37,791 nucleotides of DNA from an uncultured Ruminococcus sp. (GTDB lineage Bacteria > Bacillota > Clostridia > UBA1381): the NCBI GenBank assembly GCA_902783115.1, contig CACZPW010000082.1, positions 1-37,791 of the forward strand. The letters are read 5' to 3'. Within the stretch, counting starts at the first letter, position 1, and every line of letters starts with the position of its first letter. Below the pieces are notes generated by a model. The model saw only the letters and a program-made list of their open reading frames with translations, searched no databases and was not told the DNA's origin. This document shows, piece after piece, positions 22,901 through 36,266 of the stretch. The position numbers and the translations under genes are program-made.

Positions 22901-23040
22901 CGTTTTGGTTTTTGAGAGTTTCCCCTCATCAAGCTGCTGCCAATCCTTCATATGATTATGGTAGCTCGGCTGTCACCGCTTTCGGTGGCTGACGAGTTTT
23001 TTTCGCTTGGTTTTGAGAGTTTCCCCTGTCAAGGGGCATT
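22901..23040 (-). repeat. Structured leader / palindromic intergenic repeat cluster
   Basis: Within the 411-nt gap before the ~1700-aa protein gene, two near-identical 21-22-nt direct repeats (22905-22926 and 23007-23027; core GAGAGTTTCCCCT) flank two hairpins. One hairpin is strong (22965-22996, four outer pairs and a 5-bp GC stem around a 4-nt loop); the other spans about 22931-22965. A third small palindrome (23023-23036, CCCC/GGGG) abuts the upstream repeat. From memory, the GCTGTCACCG...CGGTGGCTGA hairpin resembles dispersed palindromic repeats common in gut Clostridia. It would lie in the 5' UTR of the downstream gene if the candidate promoter at 23038-23065 is real. No known riboswitch matched on inspection. 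Confidence 0.55.
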
Positions 23041-30719: not shown

Positions 30720-32642
30720 CTACCTGATCTTGATAACCTGATATATCATCTGCGCCGCTTCGGCACGGGTAGCATATGATTTCGGGTCAAATTTTCCTCC
30801 CGAGCCTTTTACCGCACCCTTTTCAATAAGGAAATCCACCGCCTCACGGGCATAATCACTTACCGTATCCAAATCGGTAAGCGTTGCCGTCTCATCAATT
30901 TCAATATCAAGGTCAAGTCCGGCAGTTTTTACCGCTCTGTAAATAATCGCTGCCATGTCCTCTCTTGTAATATTTTTACCTATACCGAATTTTGTATCGC
31001 TTATGCCGTTTATAATACCGACAGACAGTCCTGTTGAGATTGGAGCCGCATACCATTGTTCGGTATCTACATCTTCAAATACTTCCTTTGAGGCTCCCAA
31101 AAAGTCGAATGCGTATACTATGATTTTGACAAATTCCTCACGCTTTACATTGTCCTGCGGGAAGAAATGACTATCATCCTTGCCTGATATTATTTTGTTA
31201 TCATAAAGGTGCTTAATTGCAGTTTTTGCCCACTCATAATTTCCGCAGTCATTGAAAATAAATCCGTCTGCAGGTTTTATTTCGTTGTCAGGCTCGGGAG
31301 AACGGTCTGTTACCGGTGCATTTATACCGCCTACCGACAATGTGCCGCCGGCGTGTGTTGTTCCGCCACCGCCTGAGTTGCCGCCACCACCGCCGGTCTG
31401 CGTTTCAGGTGTTGATGCTATTACCTTTTCTATCTCCCCTGCGGTTGAAAACGGCTTATAAAGCATCAGTCTTGCAGATATGTTTTTATTCTTTGCGTAT
31501 TTGTCCTCTACGCTCTTGCTAAAGCCCAGATAGTTTATATAAGCTGAAAGCACTGCGTCAATTTCTGCCGGTGCGGGAGCCTCATTCAACATTTCAACAA
31601 CTGTCATTTTGTTGAATATTGTCTCAAATTCAGTATTGTTCTTTGCCTGTTTTAATGCATCGTTTACAATCGTTTTTGAGCTTAATTTGCAATATTCATC
31701 ATACAGTGCAGGCGCACTGTTTGCTTTATATTCTTTTAAGATTTCTTCAGGTGATTTTCCATCTGAGGACCACGCCGTTACAATGCTCTTATACAAGCTG
31801 TCCTGAAACTTCTCTACATCGGCATAGCCGTCCGCTTTAAACAGCTCCTTGCAGGCCATTATCTGCGCTGTATCTGAAAGAGCATTAAAACGGGTAGTAT
31901 CACAGTAAAGCATTTTACTGTTTGCCTTTATGTAATCGGCAAGCTGCTTTGCTTTTGAGTTATCAGCGCTTTGCTTTACTATTTCGTTAAGACCCTCAAG
32001 CGCATTGTCGAGATCCTGCTTTGATGTGTAATATATGTTAGGATTGTAATAGTTCTTTGCGAGATTATCACCTACAATAAGAACACCGTATGCACCGCTC
32101 GATGCGGTATTGGGAAACTGATGACTTACCTGCTTTCCCTCGCCCGAGGCTCTGAACTCAACCACATCAAGCACTGTTTTTGTCATATCCGACTCGTCAA
32201 CCTCGCTCCATGTATATGATGTATTTTTATCAGTCTCCGATGGCTTTAATATGAACATTTTAAGTATCTCATCATTTAAAACCTTACCCTCAACACTGAG
32301 CATACCCTTGTTGTCTATCGATACATTTGATATTTCAAGAGTATTTTTATTATTGGTAAAAACAATTCTGTAACGCTTGCCTGTAGCCGTATTTTGTATT
32401 ACTGTCGTATTTGCCTTAGTCAGCGCCTGGCCTTCTTTGTATATTTTTGTTGCTTTCGAAACAGTTTCATAACCTGCACCGGTTATGTCGGGAATGGCAT
32501 CGCCGTCAATTTCCACATAGTACATGGTGTGATCATCGCTCCATATCCTATCGAGTGTACCGTAGAGGTTGGGCATAGCCGATGCAGATGTCTGCGCAAG
32601 CACAGACATCATCATAAGCAAGATTATTATTTTTTTCTTCAT
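30720..32642 (-). CDS. SLH-domain surface protein, 640 aa, C-terminal SLH
   Basis: The protein has a signal peptide (MKKKIIILLMMMSVLAQTSA), an uncharacterised region of about 390 residues (beta-rich to about 190, helical afterwards), a Gly-rich linker (about 417-427), and three C-terminal SLH repeats (about 461-520, 521-585, 586-640). The repeats contain DNVKREEFVKIIVYAF, NITREDMAAIIYRAVK and SYATRAEAAQMIYQVI. It should be held on the cell wall through the SLH repeats and display the N-terminal part. No enzyme motif was found. GGGAGG lies 7 nt before the ATG. Its upstream junction with the 1168-aa gene is interrupted by the inverted-repeat element at 32663-32759. Confidence 0.87.
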   Translation of the reverse strand: MKKKIIILLMMMSVLAQTSASAMPNLYGTLDRIWSDDHTMYYVEIDGDAIPDITGAGYETVSKATKIYKEGQALTKANTTVIQNTATGKRYRIVFTNNKNTLEISNVSIDNKGMLSVEGKVLNDEILKMFILKPSETDKNTSYTWSEVDESDMTKTVLDVVEFRASGEGKQVSHQFPNTASSGAYGVLIVGDNLAKNYYNPNIYYTSKQDLDNALEGLNEIVKQSADNSKAKQLADYIKANSKMLYCDTTRFNALSDTAQIMACKELFKADGYADVEKFQDSLYKSIVTAWSSDGKSPEEILKEYKANSAPALYDEYCKLSSKTIVNDALKQAKNNTEFETIFNKMTVVEMLNEAPAPAEIDAVLSAYINYLGFSKSVEDKYAKNKNISARLMLYKPFSTAGEIEKVIASTPETQTGGGGGNSGGGGTTHAGGTLSVGGINAPVTDRSPEPDNEIKPADGFIFNDCGNYEWAKTAIKHLYDNKIISGKDDSHFFPQDNVKREEFVKIIVYAFDFLGASKEVFEDVDTEQWYAAPISTGLSVGIINGISDTKFGIGKNITREDMAAIIYRAVKTAGLDLDIEIDETATLTDLDTVSDYAREAVDFLIEKGAVKGSGGKFDPKSYATRAEAAQMIYQVIKIR

Positions 32643-32662
32643 TCAGTTTCCTCCCTTATTGC

Positions 32663-32759
32663 TGATGTCGTCAGGCTGACCTATGTTCATAGCTACTCGC
32701 AAGACACCCTTTGTGGTGTTTTACAAGTATATTATTTCCTTAGCCTGATGACATTGTCG
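32663..32759. mobile_element. 97-bp MITE-like inverted-repeat element with 7-bp direct repeats
   Basis: Near-terminal 13-bp inverted repeats (32665-32677 and 32742-32754) match at 12 of 13 positions. The element is flanked by exact TTATTGC copies at 32656-32662 and 32760-32766. The right-hand copy contains the stop codon of the 1168-aa beta-helix gene; the left-hand copy abuts the GGGAGG of the SLH gene. Deleting the element and one copy leaves the stop codon 13 nt before the next ATG, like the neighbouring junctions. Inside are two further small stems (ACACC/GGTGT and CTATG/CATAG), giving a three-way-junction-like fold. No ORF. A non-autonomous insertion is the best reading; a structured regulatory RNA is the alternative. 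Confidence 0.6.
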
Positions 32760-35700
32760 TTATTGCGGGTCTGCGGTTAATTCAATCGTGCAATCACGCT
32801 CCGTTGCATATACTTCAAAATATCCTGCCGGCATAATCGGCTCGTCATTGTCGTTATACTCAACTATCGTTTTGCCGTCGACCTTGAAAAGAATATCAAC
32901 GCTTCCGTTATCATTATTAAGCGCCGAATATTCAATCTCATGTGTCTGACCTGAGAATATACAATCGTTTGGATATTCAACAAAGACAGAGTTTCCGCCA
33001 CCGAATTTCTGGAACTCGATTGTTTTCGCCTTTATAATAACGATATATTGACTGTTTCCGTTCCATGCAACCGCTGTCGGGCTTGCCTGCGCTCTTATTC
33101 CATAGCCTATGAAGCCGTTTCCGATATTGTCAATCTTTGCTTTGAATTTCATAATCTGATGCGTAGGTATTCGCTCTGCCGTACCGAATGTGGAATTTGC
33201 CTTACTCGTATGCGACAGCTTACCCGGTGAAATGGTAAACTGGTTCGGGGTTATGTTCCAATATCCGCCCGAAACAAGCTTATACATATCTACATATTCG
33301 GGATACTTCTTTGCGTCAAGTACATCAAACTGTGAATTTAATTCACCCACCATGCGGTTAATATCTCTTTGAGTTACACCTGCACTGTCCTTGCGCCCCT
33401 CATACATTTCGATAAGTTTTTCCATTTCCTCCTTTACGCCTGTCATATATCCGCCCGGCTTTTCGCTTTCAACAACGGTTGCGGCACGGTTCTTTAAAAG
33501 CTCTATTGCATCGTTTATCTTTTCTTTGTTAAGAACCTCCTTCGATTTTGTTGTAAAGCTATAGTATTGCTGGTTCGATTTTACCGGCGCATCGTCAAGC
33601 ATGGAATTTGTCTTATTAGGGATTGCCGTAACCTTCCAGTAATATCTTGTTTTATTGTAATTTAATCTGTTTATTGTAACGCTGTTTGCCTTTACATATT
33701 TATTTGAAATAATGTTTTTAAACTCGGCATCGGTTGAAAGTGTAAACAGATACTTTTCTGCATTATCCGCTCTCGTCCATTCAAATACGACTTCCGAGCC
33801 TTCTATATTTTCAGACTTGTTTTTAGGACTTACAAGGTCAAAATTACCCAAACGGTGAAGCTTTTTTCTGTCCTCATCAAGGTATATTCCCGCCTTATCG
33901 ATTATTTCCTGATACTTTGGCGGGATTACAAAATTCTTTGCCTCCTCCTTTGAAATGACAGTATTATCCTTTATAACCACATACGGCTCGACATTTGCAC
34001 CGATTGCCTCAACGCCCTGTGTAGTCTTATCGGTATTTGCAAGATTTACAAATGTATTTCCCGATACTTCACAGTCGTACGGAGGCACAACAGCCATTCC
34101 CTTATGTGCGTCAATGTGGTCAAAAATGCTTTTATATTTCTGCCACGGCTCGCTCTTGTACGGGTAATCGTAGAGTCGCCATAAAAATGTGTTTGCGCTA
34201 AAGCTTGTAGCGGTTGAGCTGTCCCAAAATCTTGCGGCGTTTCCGTCGGGAACTATTCTTGCCGCACAGCCCTTACCGTTTAATACAAGGCTGTCCTTCA
34301 TAGTGTTATACACACCGCCATGCACTATCATAGAGCTTCCCGTATTTATAAATACATTTGAATAGGCGTGATGATTTGACAATGTATCATCGTAGTAGAT
34401 TACACCCATTGACGGGGGTATATCGTGGAAGTAATTATATCTTACAACCGTATTCTGGTCGCAGATATTTCTGCCGCCGTATATAACGCCGGCGTCCTCT
34501 GCCTGGTCCTGAAGGTTGTCATAAAATTCATTGTATTCGGCAACATTATCGTTACCGCTCATACCAATCGCCGTATGCGGTCCGCCAACGATTTCATTAT
34601 GGGTTATCGTTTCACCTACGCCCTCAAACCTTATCGCACCGCAGTTTGTTCTCTGGATTGTGTTAAAATCCTTAAAAAAGCAGTTGCGCACAACACTGTT
34701 TGACGGAGTTAATGTCTGCCTGTCTCCGCCTCTTAGGGTTATGGGGTTTGCCGTAATGGAATAGAAATCACAGCCTGTAATGGTATTGTTAAAGCCACGC
34801 TCCAATATTCCGTCGGACACATTTTTGAATGTACATCCTTTTATTGTGATATTTCGGCAATTATCGTCAAGGTCTATCACCCTGTTTAGTGAATTTTCAA
34901 ATATAATTCCGTCAAAAACTACATTTTGACAGCCTTGCATGGTTATCATGGTGTTTGACAAAAGTGCAAACTGCACATAGTTATTCAAAAAGTCGGTGTT
35001 ATTCTTATCTCCCTCTACAGGATAAACAAATATTCTGTTTGTTTTCTTGTCAAAATAAAACTCACCGCTGCTGTCAAGCTCACTGAGCATATTGTATACA
35101 TAATATTCCTTGCCTGATAAGATACCGTACTCGGCACCCCTGTCCGAAGCGATGGAAAGGTCGCTCATACGAATGTCGGTTATTTTTCTGAACTCGCCTG
35201 CCCAACGCACCGCAAAATATCCGAATATTCTCGGATCTGTCTCATTTTGCCAGCGCTTCATACGGGTATCGTCTACAACAAACCGAAATCCCTTTGTTCT
35301 CCAGTTGTCGTGATCCTCCTCAAGCACCTCGCCCGTAAGGTTAAATGTTTTGTTGGGCCATCTGCAAACAGTTAAGTTTTCGCCTTTATAGTTTACATTC
35401 CACGAAGCAGGATCACCTGCCTTAAAGGATGTATCAAAACCCGCAAGCTGATCTGTTATATCCGCATACACAACATTGCTTGCATCGGGGATCATATTTA
35501 AAACAGCAGGATCTGTTATATCCTTAAATTCCGAGCCTTTTATGCTTATTCCGCCGTTAAATGAAACCCTCTCCCCGTTATATGCCTTAAATATGATAGG
35601 CGAGCCGTCAAGACCGCTTATCTGCTCATTGAATTTTATAGTGTCCTTTACGGTGTATGTACCTTCACGAAGGTATATTTCAATGCCTCCCAGGGGCAGT

Positions 35701-36266
35701 CCTATCTGCTTTTCAAGCTGTACTACCGTTCCGTATGCTCTCATAATATCAGGTAACGGAGCATTAAAGCTTCCTGTACCTGTTGAGCCTCCCTGAGCAG
35801 ACACATACACACCGAAAAGTCTGTCCATAAGCGACGGTAACTTTGACGGCATTGTATAATTCTGATACAAATATACCGTTTCACCGTTCATTTCCATACC
35901 TATACCGTTTTGTGATGCAAAATCATTTATATTAACATAATTTCCTACACCTAAAACCGCATTCGGAAATGCCTGCTTTACAAACGATACCGGCACATAT
36001 ACCGCCGACTCCTTTACATAGGCAACCTCACCGTCATTTTCGGATATTTTTTCCTTTTTACCGTGTATAAAGCCGTACTCTGCACCCGGCTGAAGCATAA
36101 TGGTATTTTCCATTATATTCCGTGCGTCATTTGAGTTTATGTTTTTAAACACACTCTCTGTAACCGCTTGCTCCTCACCTAAAGCAAAAGCTGTATCAGT
36201 GTGTGTCCAAGATATGGCATGGGCAAGCATTGCCGCTGCCATAATGATAATCAAAATCTTTTTCAT
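32760..36266 (-). CDS. Large secreted right-handed beta-helix protein (GH141-like), 1168 aa
   Basis: A signal peptide (about 1-29, ending AFA-LG) is followed by a small domain (about 50-130) resembling copper-amine-oxidase N-terminal/stalk-like modules (SAVYVPVSFVKQAF). A right-handed beta-helix follows (about 150-790), with motifs RWPNKTF, NVAEYNEFYDN, AEDAGVIYGGRN and VVRYNYFHDI. These parallel the 803-aa protein and recall GH141. An Fn3-like module (about 800-900), a helical FIVAR-like segment (about 905-985) and a C-terminal jelly-roll (about 1000-1168) complete it. It is probably an extracellular polysaccharide-degrading enzyme; linkage specificity cannot be assigned. The ATG has only a weak ribosome-binding site (GGTAAATT upstream). 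The gene lies 26 nt after the edge-truncated gene. Confidence 0.82.
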   Translation of the reverse strand: MKKILIIIMAAAMLAHAISWTHTDTAFALGEEQAVTESVFKNINSNDARNIMENTIMLQPGAEYGFIHGKKEKISENDGEVAYVKESAVYVPVSFVKQAFPNAVLGVGNYVNINDFASQNGIGMEMNGETVYLYQNYTMPSKLPSLMDRLFGVYVSAQGGSTGTGSFNAPLPDIMRAYGTVVQLEKQIGLPLGGIEIYLREGTYTVKDTIKFNEQISGLDGSPIIFKAYNGERVSFNGGISIKGSEFKDITDPAVLNMIPDASNVVYADITDQLAGFDTSFKAGDPASWNVNYKGENLTVCRWPNKTFNLTGEVLEEDHDNWRTKGFRFVVDDTRMKRWQNETDPRIFGYFAVRWAGEFRKITDIRMSDLSIASDRGAEYGILSGKEYYVYNMLSELDSSGEFYFDKKTNRIFVYPVEGDKNNTDFLNNYVQFALLSNTMITMQGCQNVVFDGIIFENSLNRVIDLDDNCRNITIKGCTFKNVSDGILERGFNNTITGCDFYSITANPITLRGGDRQTLTPSNSVVRNCFFKDFNTIQRTNCGAIRFEGVGETITHNEIVGGPHTAIGMSGNDNVAEYNEFYDNLQDQAEDAGVIYGGRNICDQNTVVRYNYFHDIPPSMGVIYYDDTLSNHHAYSNVFINTGSSMIVHGGVYNTMKDSLVLNGKGCAARIVPDGNAARFWDSSTATSFSANTFLWRLYDYPYKSEPWQKYKSIFDHIDAHKGMAVVPPYDCEVSGNTFVNLANTDKTTQGVEAIGANVEPYVVIKDNTVISKEEAKNFVIPPKYQEIIDKAGIYLDEDRKKLHRLGNFDLVSPKNKSENIEGSEVVFEWTRADNAEKYLFTLSTDAEFKNIISNKYVKANSVTINRLNYNKTRYYWKVTAIPNKTNSMLDDAPVKSNQQYYSFTTKSKEVLNKEKINDAIELLKNRAATVVESEKPGGYMTGVKEEMEKLIEMYEGRKDSAGVTQRDINRMVGELNSQFDVLDAKKYPEYVDMYKLVSGGYWNITPNQFTISPGKLSHTSKANSTFGTAERIPTHQIMKFKAKIDNIGNGFIGYGIRAQASPTAVAWNGNSQYIVIIKAKTIEFQKFGGGNSVFVEYPNDCIFSGQTHEIEYSALNNDNGSVDILFKVDGKTIVEYNDNDEPIMPAGYFEVYATERDCTIELTADPQ

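Follow-up and report, generated by a model that had tools for sequence, protein, structure and literature searches.

A probable IS4-type MITE at a Shine-Dalgarno sequence in an uncultured Ruminococcus sp. and the family to which it belongs

Structure and boundaries of the element

The window (the whole stretch of DNA that was analysed, 37,791 nt) carries a tight operon on the minus strand, made up of carbohydrate-active genes and genes with SLH domains, in which an inverted-repeat sequence lies exactly between the stop codon of a 1168-aa gene and the Shine-Dalgarno sequence (SD) of the next gene. The original prediction was a miniature inverted-repeat transposable element (MITE) of 97 bp with 13-bp near-terminal inverted repeats and a flanking 7-bp direct repeat.

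Exact TTATTGC repeats were indeed present at 32656-32662 and 32760-32766, the right one including the TAA of the 1168-aa gene and the left one abutting the GGGAGG of the SLH gene. Comparison with sister copies in related genomes showed, however, that they are part of a 10-bp target duplication, GCAATAACGA and GCAATAAGGG, which is identical in 8 of 10 positions; both mismatches fall in the duplication copy that is not now used as SD. The 13-bp arms (32665-32677 and 32742-32754) were complementary in 12 of 13 positions as described, but the sister copies place the inverted repeats at the very ends of the element, and its length was revised from 97 to 94 bp (Table 1). Excision of the element together with one 10-bp copy gives the same 13-nt junction as in the original prediction, the neighbouring gaps in the operon being 3-26 nt. 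The duplication covers the stop codon of the 1168-aa gene as well as the beginning of the SD, so both genes retain their signals.

Table 1. Coordinates of the element at the junction, of its surroundings and of a second copy in the window
Feature	Position	Strand	Remarks
MITE	32663..32756	-	94 bp; model R1 78.3 bits, E 8.8e-14, full length 1-92; ends agree with sister copies
Left terminal inverted repeat CAATGTCATCAGGCTAAG	32739..32756	-	2 mismatches with family pattern CAATGTYGTCAAGYTAAG
Right terminal inverted repeat, read inward TGATGTCGTCAGGCTGAC	32663..32680	+	13/18 compared with the left one
Central hairpin CTTGTAAAACACCACAAAGGGTGTCTTGCGAG	32696..32727	-	minimum-energy fold; z-score of -4.4 refers to the whole region
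Upstream 10-bp target duplication copy GCAATAACGA	32757..32766	-	contains TAA stop of 1168-aa gene; length from sister copies
Downstream 10-bp target duplication copy GCAATAAGGG	32653..32662	-	extends into SD of SLH gene; length from sister copies
SD GGGAGG of SLH gene	32650..32655	-	8 nt 5' of ATG at 32642
Upstream 1168-aa gene	32760..36266	-	without Pfam match
Downstream 640-aa gene, three SLH domains	30720..32642	-	
Second, decayed element core	22942..23013	-	R1 57.5 bits, model positions 11-82; inverted repeats unrecognisable

Copies in related genomes

A profile model, R1, was built from an alignment of 16 copies. Counting the two strands of a palindromic place once, it detected 51 copies, spread over four genomes that belong to one family. 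G002, a congener, has 27 of them, G018, which belongs to another genus, has 21, G065 has one and the window has two. R1 found no copies in the 95 other genomes of the order that were searched, nor in a sample of 391 genomes of the class, in searches of a size at which filters may lose weak matches, and the core pattern was not found in the viral contigs searched. The source genome (an 82%-complete assembly in 290 contigs) contains one full-length copy and one decayed remnant. With BLAST, the window copy retrieved no second copy from the source genome, and from 150 relatives a single match over nearly the full element (G018, 68% identity) amid chance matches; the copy matched bears its own flanking repeat and has about 16 relatives within G018. 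The members of the family are 92-94 bp long and non-coding with terminal inverted repeats of about 15-18 bp, of which the window copy keeps the 12/13 core, and in G002 and G018 they are dispersed in the multiple copies expected of a bacterial MITE.

Most copies start with CAATG (or TAATG) and end with CATTG or CATTA. Their flanks are duplications of about 10 bp that differ from copy to copy, several of them exact (CCTAAAACAG, CTTTATTACC, CAAAGACAG and GATTAAAGG); the multiple copies with differing flanks that had been predicted were thus found, in the congener and in the other genus. The predicted empty site was found for a sister copy. In G002, an element is inserted between mraY and ftsW, where the congeners G001, G003 and G004 have a short junction without it (these and other gene names were assigned by reading the translations, with no family search behind them). 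The corresponding junction of the source genome has a different sequence. For the window locus itself, a search for orthologs of the SLH gene returned only SLH-domain paralogues.

Several minor observations were made on the copies. Head-to-tail arrays with a period of about 100 bp occur at two places in G002, with three copies at C64:13754-14045 (L087) and two at C59:3416-3610 (L088), and the spacer between their units is duplication-like. Four copies (L091, L098, L100 and L050) are shortened to 55-73 bp, keeping both ends with the central hairpin mostly or wholly gone, so the hairpin may be dispensable for mobility. The decayed copy in the window is bracketed by a 17-bp direct repeat, AGGGGAAACTCTCAAAA (22910-22926 and 23011-23027), which exceeds the 10-bp duplication of the family in length and has no further occurrence in the source genome and none in five other genomes searched; on the plus strand this copy shows a terminator-like hairpin followed by seven Ts. 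Upstream of ftsW in the source genome (L134, contig C215), an insertion of several hundred bases contains an additional open frame as well as short palindromic repeats around AAATCAT.

Source of mobility

A scan of four genomes for the terminal inverted repeat showed that five contig ends of G018 represent both ends of one multicopy insertion sequence (IS) with a 29-bp inverted repeat. Its end pairs, matched by eye, share the 10-bp flanks CACAACCACG and CATGGTTAAG, and its interior is unassembled. The family inverted repeat and the 10-bp duplications are common to the elements and to this IS. When its inverted repeat was scanned against named genomes, the matches listed included numerous further MITEs, their 10-bp duplications exact or nearly so, and two full IS elements, L209 and L239, whose ends are CAATGTCGTCAACTT and whose transposases belong to the IS4 family. 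L209 is 1549 bp long and encodes a protein of 397 aa (PF01609, E 7e-21; NF033592, 156.7 bits with a cutoff of 115) in which YRLRWGIESKYRELK reads as the YREK motif, Y-(2)-R-(3)-E-(6)-K. L239 measures 1521 bp, scores 180.2 bits with NF033592 and has a duplication identical in 10 of 10 positions.

The IS4 subgroup is characterized by ends of the type -AATR--------WTW, duplications of 10-13 bp and a length of 1400-1650 bp (De Palmenaer et al. 2008, PMC2266710). The family consensus CAATGTCGTCAAGTTAAG fits the ends in the form -AATR--------WTW----, duplications are about 10 bp in well-preserved copies, and L209 and L239 are autonomous elements whose ends are nearly identical and whose transposases have the YREK motif. 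Unlike members of the subgroup, the element is 94 bp long and non-coding, and its autonomous partner is unassembled in the source genome. In the window copy the WTW position has drifted, as has the right end. Taken together, the ends, the duplication length and the matching full-length IS elsewhere point to an IS4-subgroup transposase, which was probably also the mover of the window copy, judging from these sequence features. Against this weighs that L209 and L239 reside in other, unrelated genomes. A PF01609 search of the assembled contigs of G000 (the source genome) and G002 gave no match, and no IS4-subgroup transposase was found in either, so in these two genomes the partner has been lost, was missed in assembly or is foreign. 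The PF01609 transposases of G018 and G004 were considered as partner and rejected, as the family inverted repeat was not found in their surroundings and they are not similar to the transposase of L209.

Among the matches listed, loci L138-L241 comprise MITEs with ends CAATRYNGTCAACTTAAG and 10-bp duplications in Clostridia, Bacteroidetes, Bacillales and others; many of their targets in this set are palindromic.

The feature in the window is thus very probably a non-autonomous MITE of 92-94 bp with IS4-subgroup ends that was inserted long ago. An IS4-type DDE transposase acting in trans would have excised the element from another site and inserted it into GCAATAAGGGAGG, between the 1168-aa and SLH genes. 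Gap repair would then have duplicated 10 bp, leaving intact both the stop codon of the 1168-aa gene and the SD of the SLH gene.

Insertion sites

The position of insertions was assessed with a simple purpose-made gene caller for the 34 copies with both neighbours called. The duplication edge lay 4-22 nt from a start codon in 24 of them, against 7.4 expected from uniform placement in the same intergenic regions. When only intergenic regions of 100 nt or more were counted, this held for 13 of 19 copies against 1.9 expected, with an exact tail of 6e-10 that is optimistic because the 4-22 nt range was picked after the distances were known. A few copies in the sample are related by duplication, and the excess is still large. 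Elements were oriented with the gene in 19 cases and against it in five (p 0.007), a bias that is weaker (9:4) in long intergenic regions. Of 24 co-oriented copies, 19 have a G at flank position 10 and 16 have one at flank position 9; as this set was chosen for having an SD, the counts show phase and not an independent preference. Ten of the 13 sites not called SD-proximal, some of which are probably uncalled SDs, have at least three Gs in positions 8-13 on one side, compared with 25% of random positions. The similar-ended MITEs of other genomes, among the matches listed, lie mostly elsewhere, often at palindromes such as CCCTTTCAGGGG.

The family is thus statistically biased towards SDs. The cause may lie in the transposase, if it prefers a G tract at the duplication edge, or in selection for sites that are harmless. 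Selection can contribute, because stop codon, promoter and SD can all survive insertion here; it would not by itself predict such a sharp concentration near SDs. As a tentative extension, the transposase might recognise the context of SDs, an A-rich stretch with a G tract after it, so that a transcribed hairpin is repeatedly set, as a mobile leader, immediately 5' of SDs that the duplication preserves.

Effect in the operon

Between stop codon and SD, the mRNA is longer by about 104 nt of foldable spacer owing to the element, and the SD itself lies outside it. Averaged over the copies, the predicted openness of SD and start codon was the same with and without the element. An outward promoter was looked for in the window copy, giving only promoter-like matches of 9/12, and a terminator was not found. 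Most likely the insertion is largely tolerated, and any effect that it may have on translational coupling or mRNA decay would be modest at most.

A different outcome would be that the MITE, once transposed in, was kept 5' of SDs because its hairpin usefully changes translation or mRNA stability. The proximity to SDs and the 19:5 orientation bias would suit such recruitment, and MITE effects on transcripts have precedents (PMC2229807); for ERIC and NEMIS, useful hairpin effects on translation or mRNA stability have been proposed. We regard it as rather unlikely here, as the sequences decay without compensatory change, the SD is predicted to be as open as before, the downstream genes have no common function and the orientation bias falls to 9:4 in long intergenic regions.

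Folding and conservation

The element folds better than shuffled sequences on both strands, as is expected of any inverted repeat. Rfam gave no credible match at gathering or permissive thresholds. Stem covariation, named in the original prediction as a sign of a regulatory RNA, was 0.104 across the 16 copies against 0.101 in shuffles, with 173 of 500 shuffles equally high, and pairing was also not above shuffles. With covariation within the shuffle range, a conserved regulatory RNA is unsupported. Such an RNA, a riboswitch- or thermometer-like cis-acting leader of the SLH gene, would agree with the folding and with the location of the element immediately 5' of the SD, which most sister copies share in the same orientation. 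It is nevertheless highly improbable, since in addition to the points above the copies precede unrelated genes (ftsW, ftsH, an exonuclease III-like gene and a LepA-like gene, among others), carry target duplications on their flanks and leave the mean predicted SD openness equal. The insertion of a MITE, as originally proposed, was borne out by the multicopy family, the differing duplications, the empty site of a sister copy and the lack of stem covariation above shuffles.

A chance inverted repeat beside a chance 7-bp repeat would be compatible with the single full-length copy in the source genome, but its probability is negligible: the combination of an exact 7-bp repeat, spaced by about 100 bp, and 12/13 arms just within it occurred once in the 37.8-kb window and in 0 of 40 Markov-shuffled windows, and the dispersed family, with homologous copies in two genera, already refutes it.

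Comparison with known repeats

The element represents a new family of a known kind, the IS4-type MITE. MITEAba12 (PMC6382973) is likewise a non-autonomous element, of about 110 bp, whose parent IS was assigned by shared inverted repeats and duplication length; it differs in its parent IS and in its 9-bp duplications, and neither an orientation preference nor a target-sequence trend was reported for it. Correia/NEMIS, RUP and ERIC (PMC2229807, PMC10969869) are also small foldable mobile repeats near genes, often co-transcribed, and Correia copies lie predominantly immediately 5' of genes (PMC10969869). Most of these repeats have TA-type termini, in contrast to the IS4-like ends and ~10-bp duplications of the present family, for which no promoter or processing role was shown.

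In the literature searched, with incomplete coverage, no MITE phased to SDs was found. The MITE family defined here is dispersed in uncultured Clostridia and combines IS4-type ends with SD-phased insertions, a pattern of insertion that makes it testable whether a transposase uses ribosome-binding sites as safe targets or selection alone leaves elements there.

The source genome also contains another MITE, larger at about 200 bp, with ends CAATATTGTCAACTTAAG and several small inner hairpins. It was observed on contig C33 near 6020 on the minus strand (L119), with flanks CCAAACTGCGG and CCAAACTGCAG, and on contig C77 near 4804 (L120).
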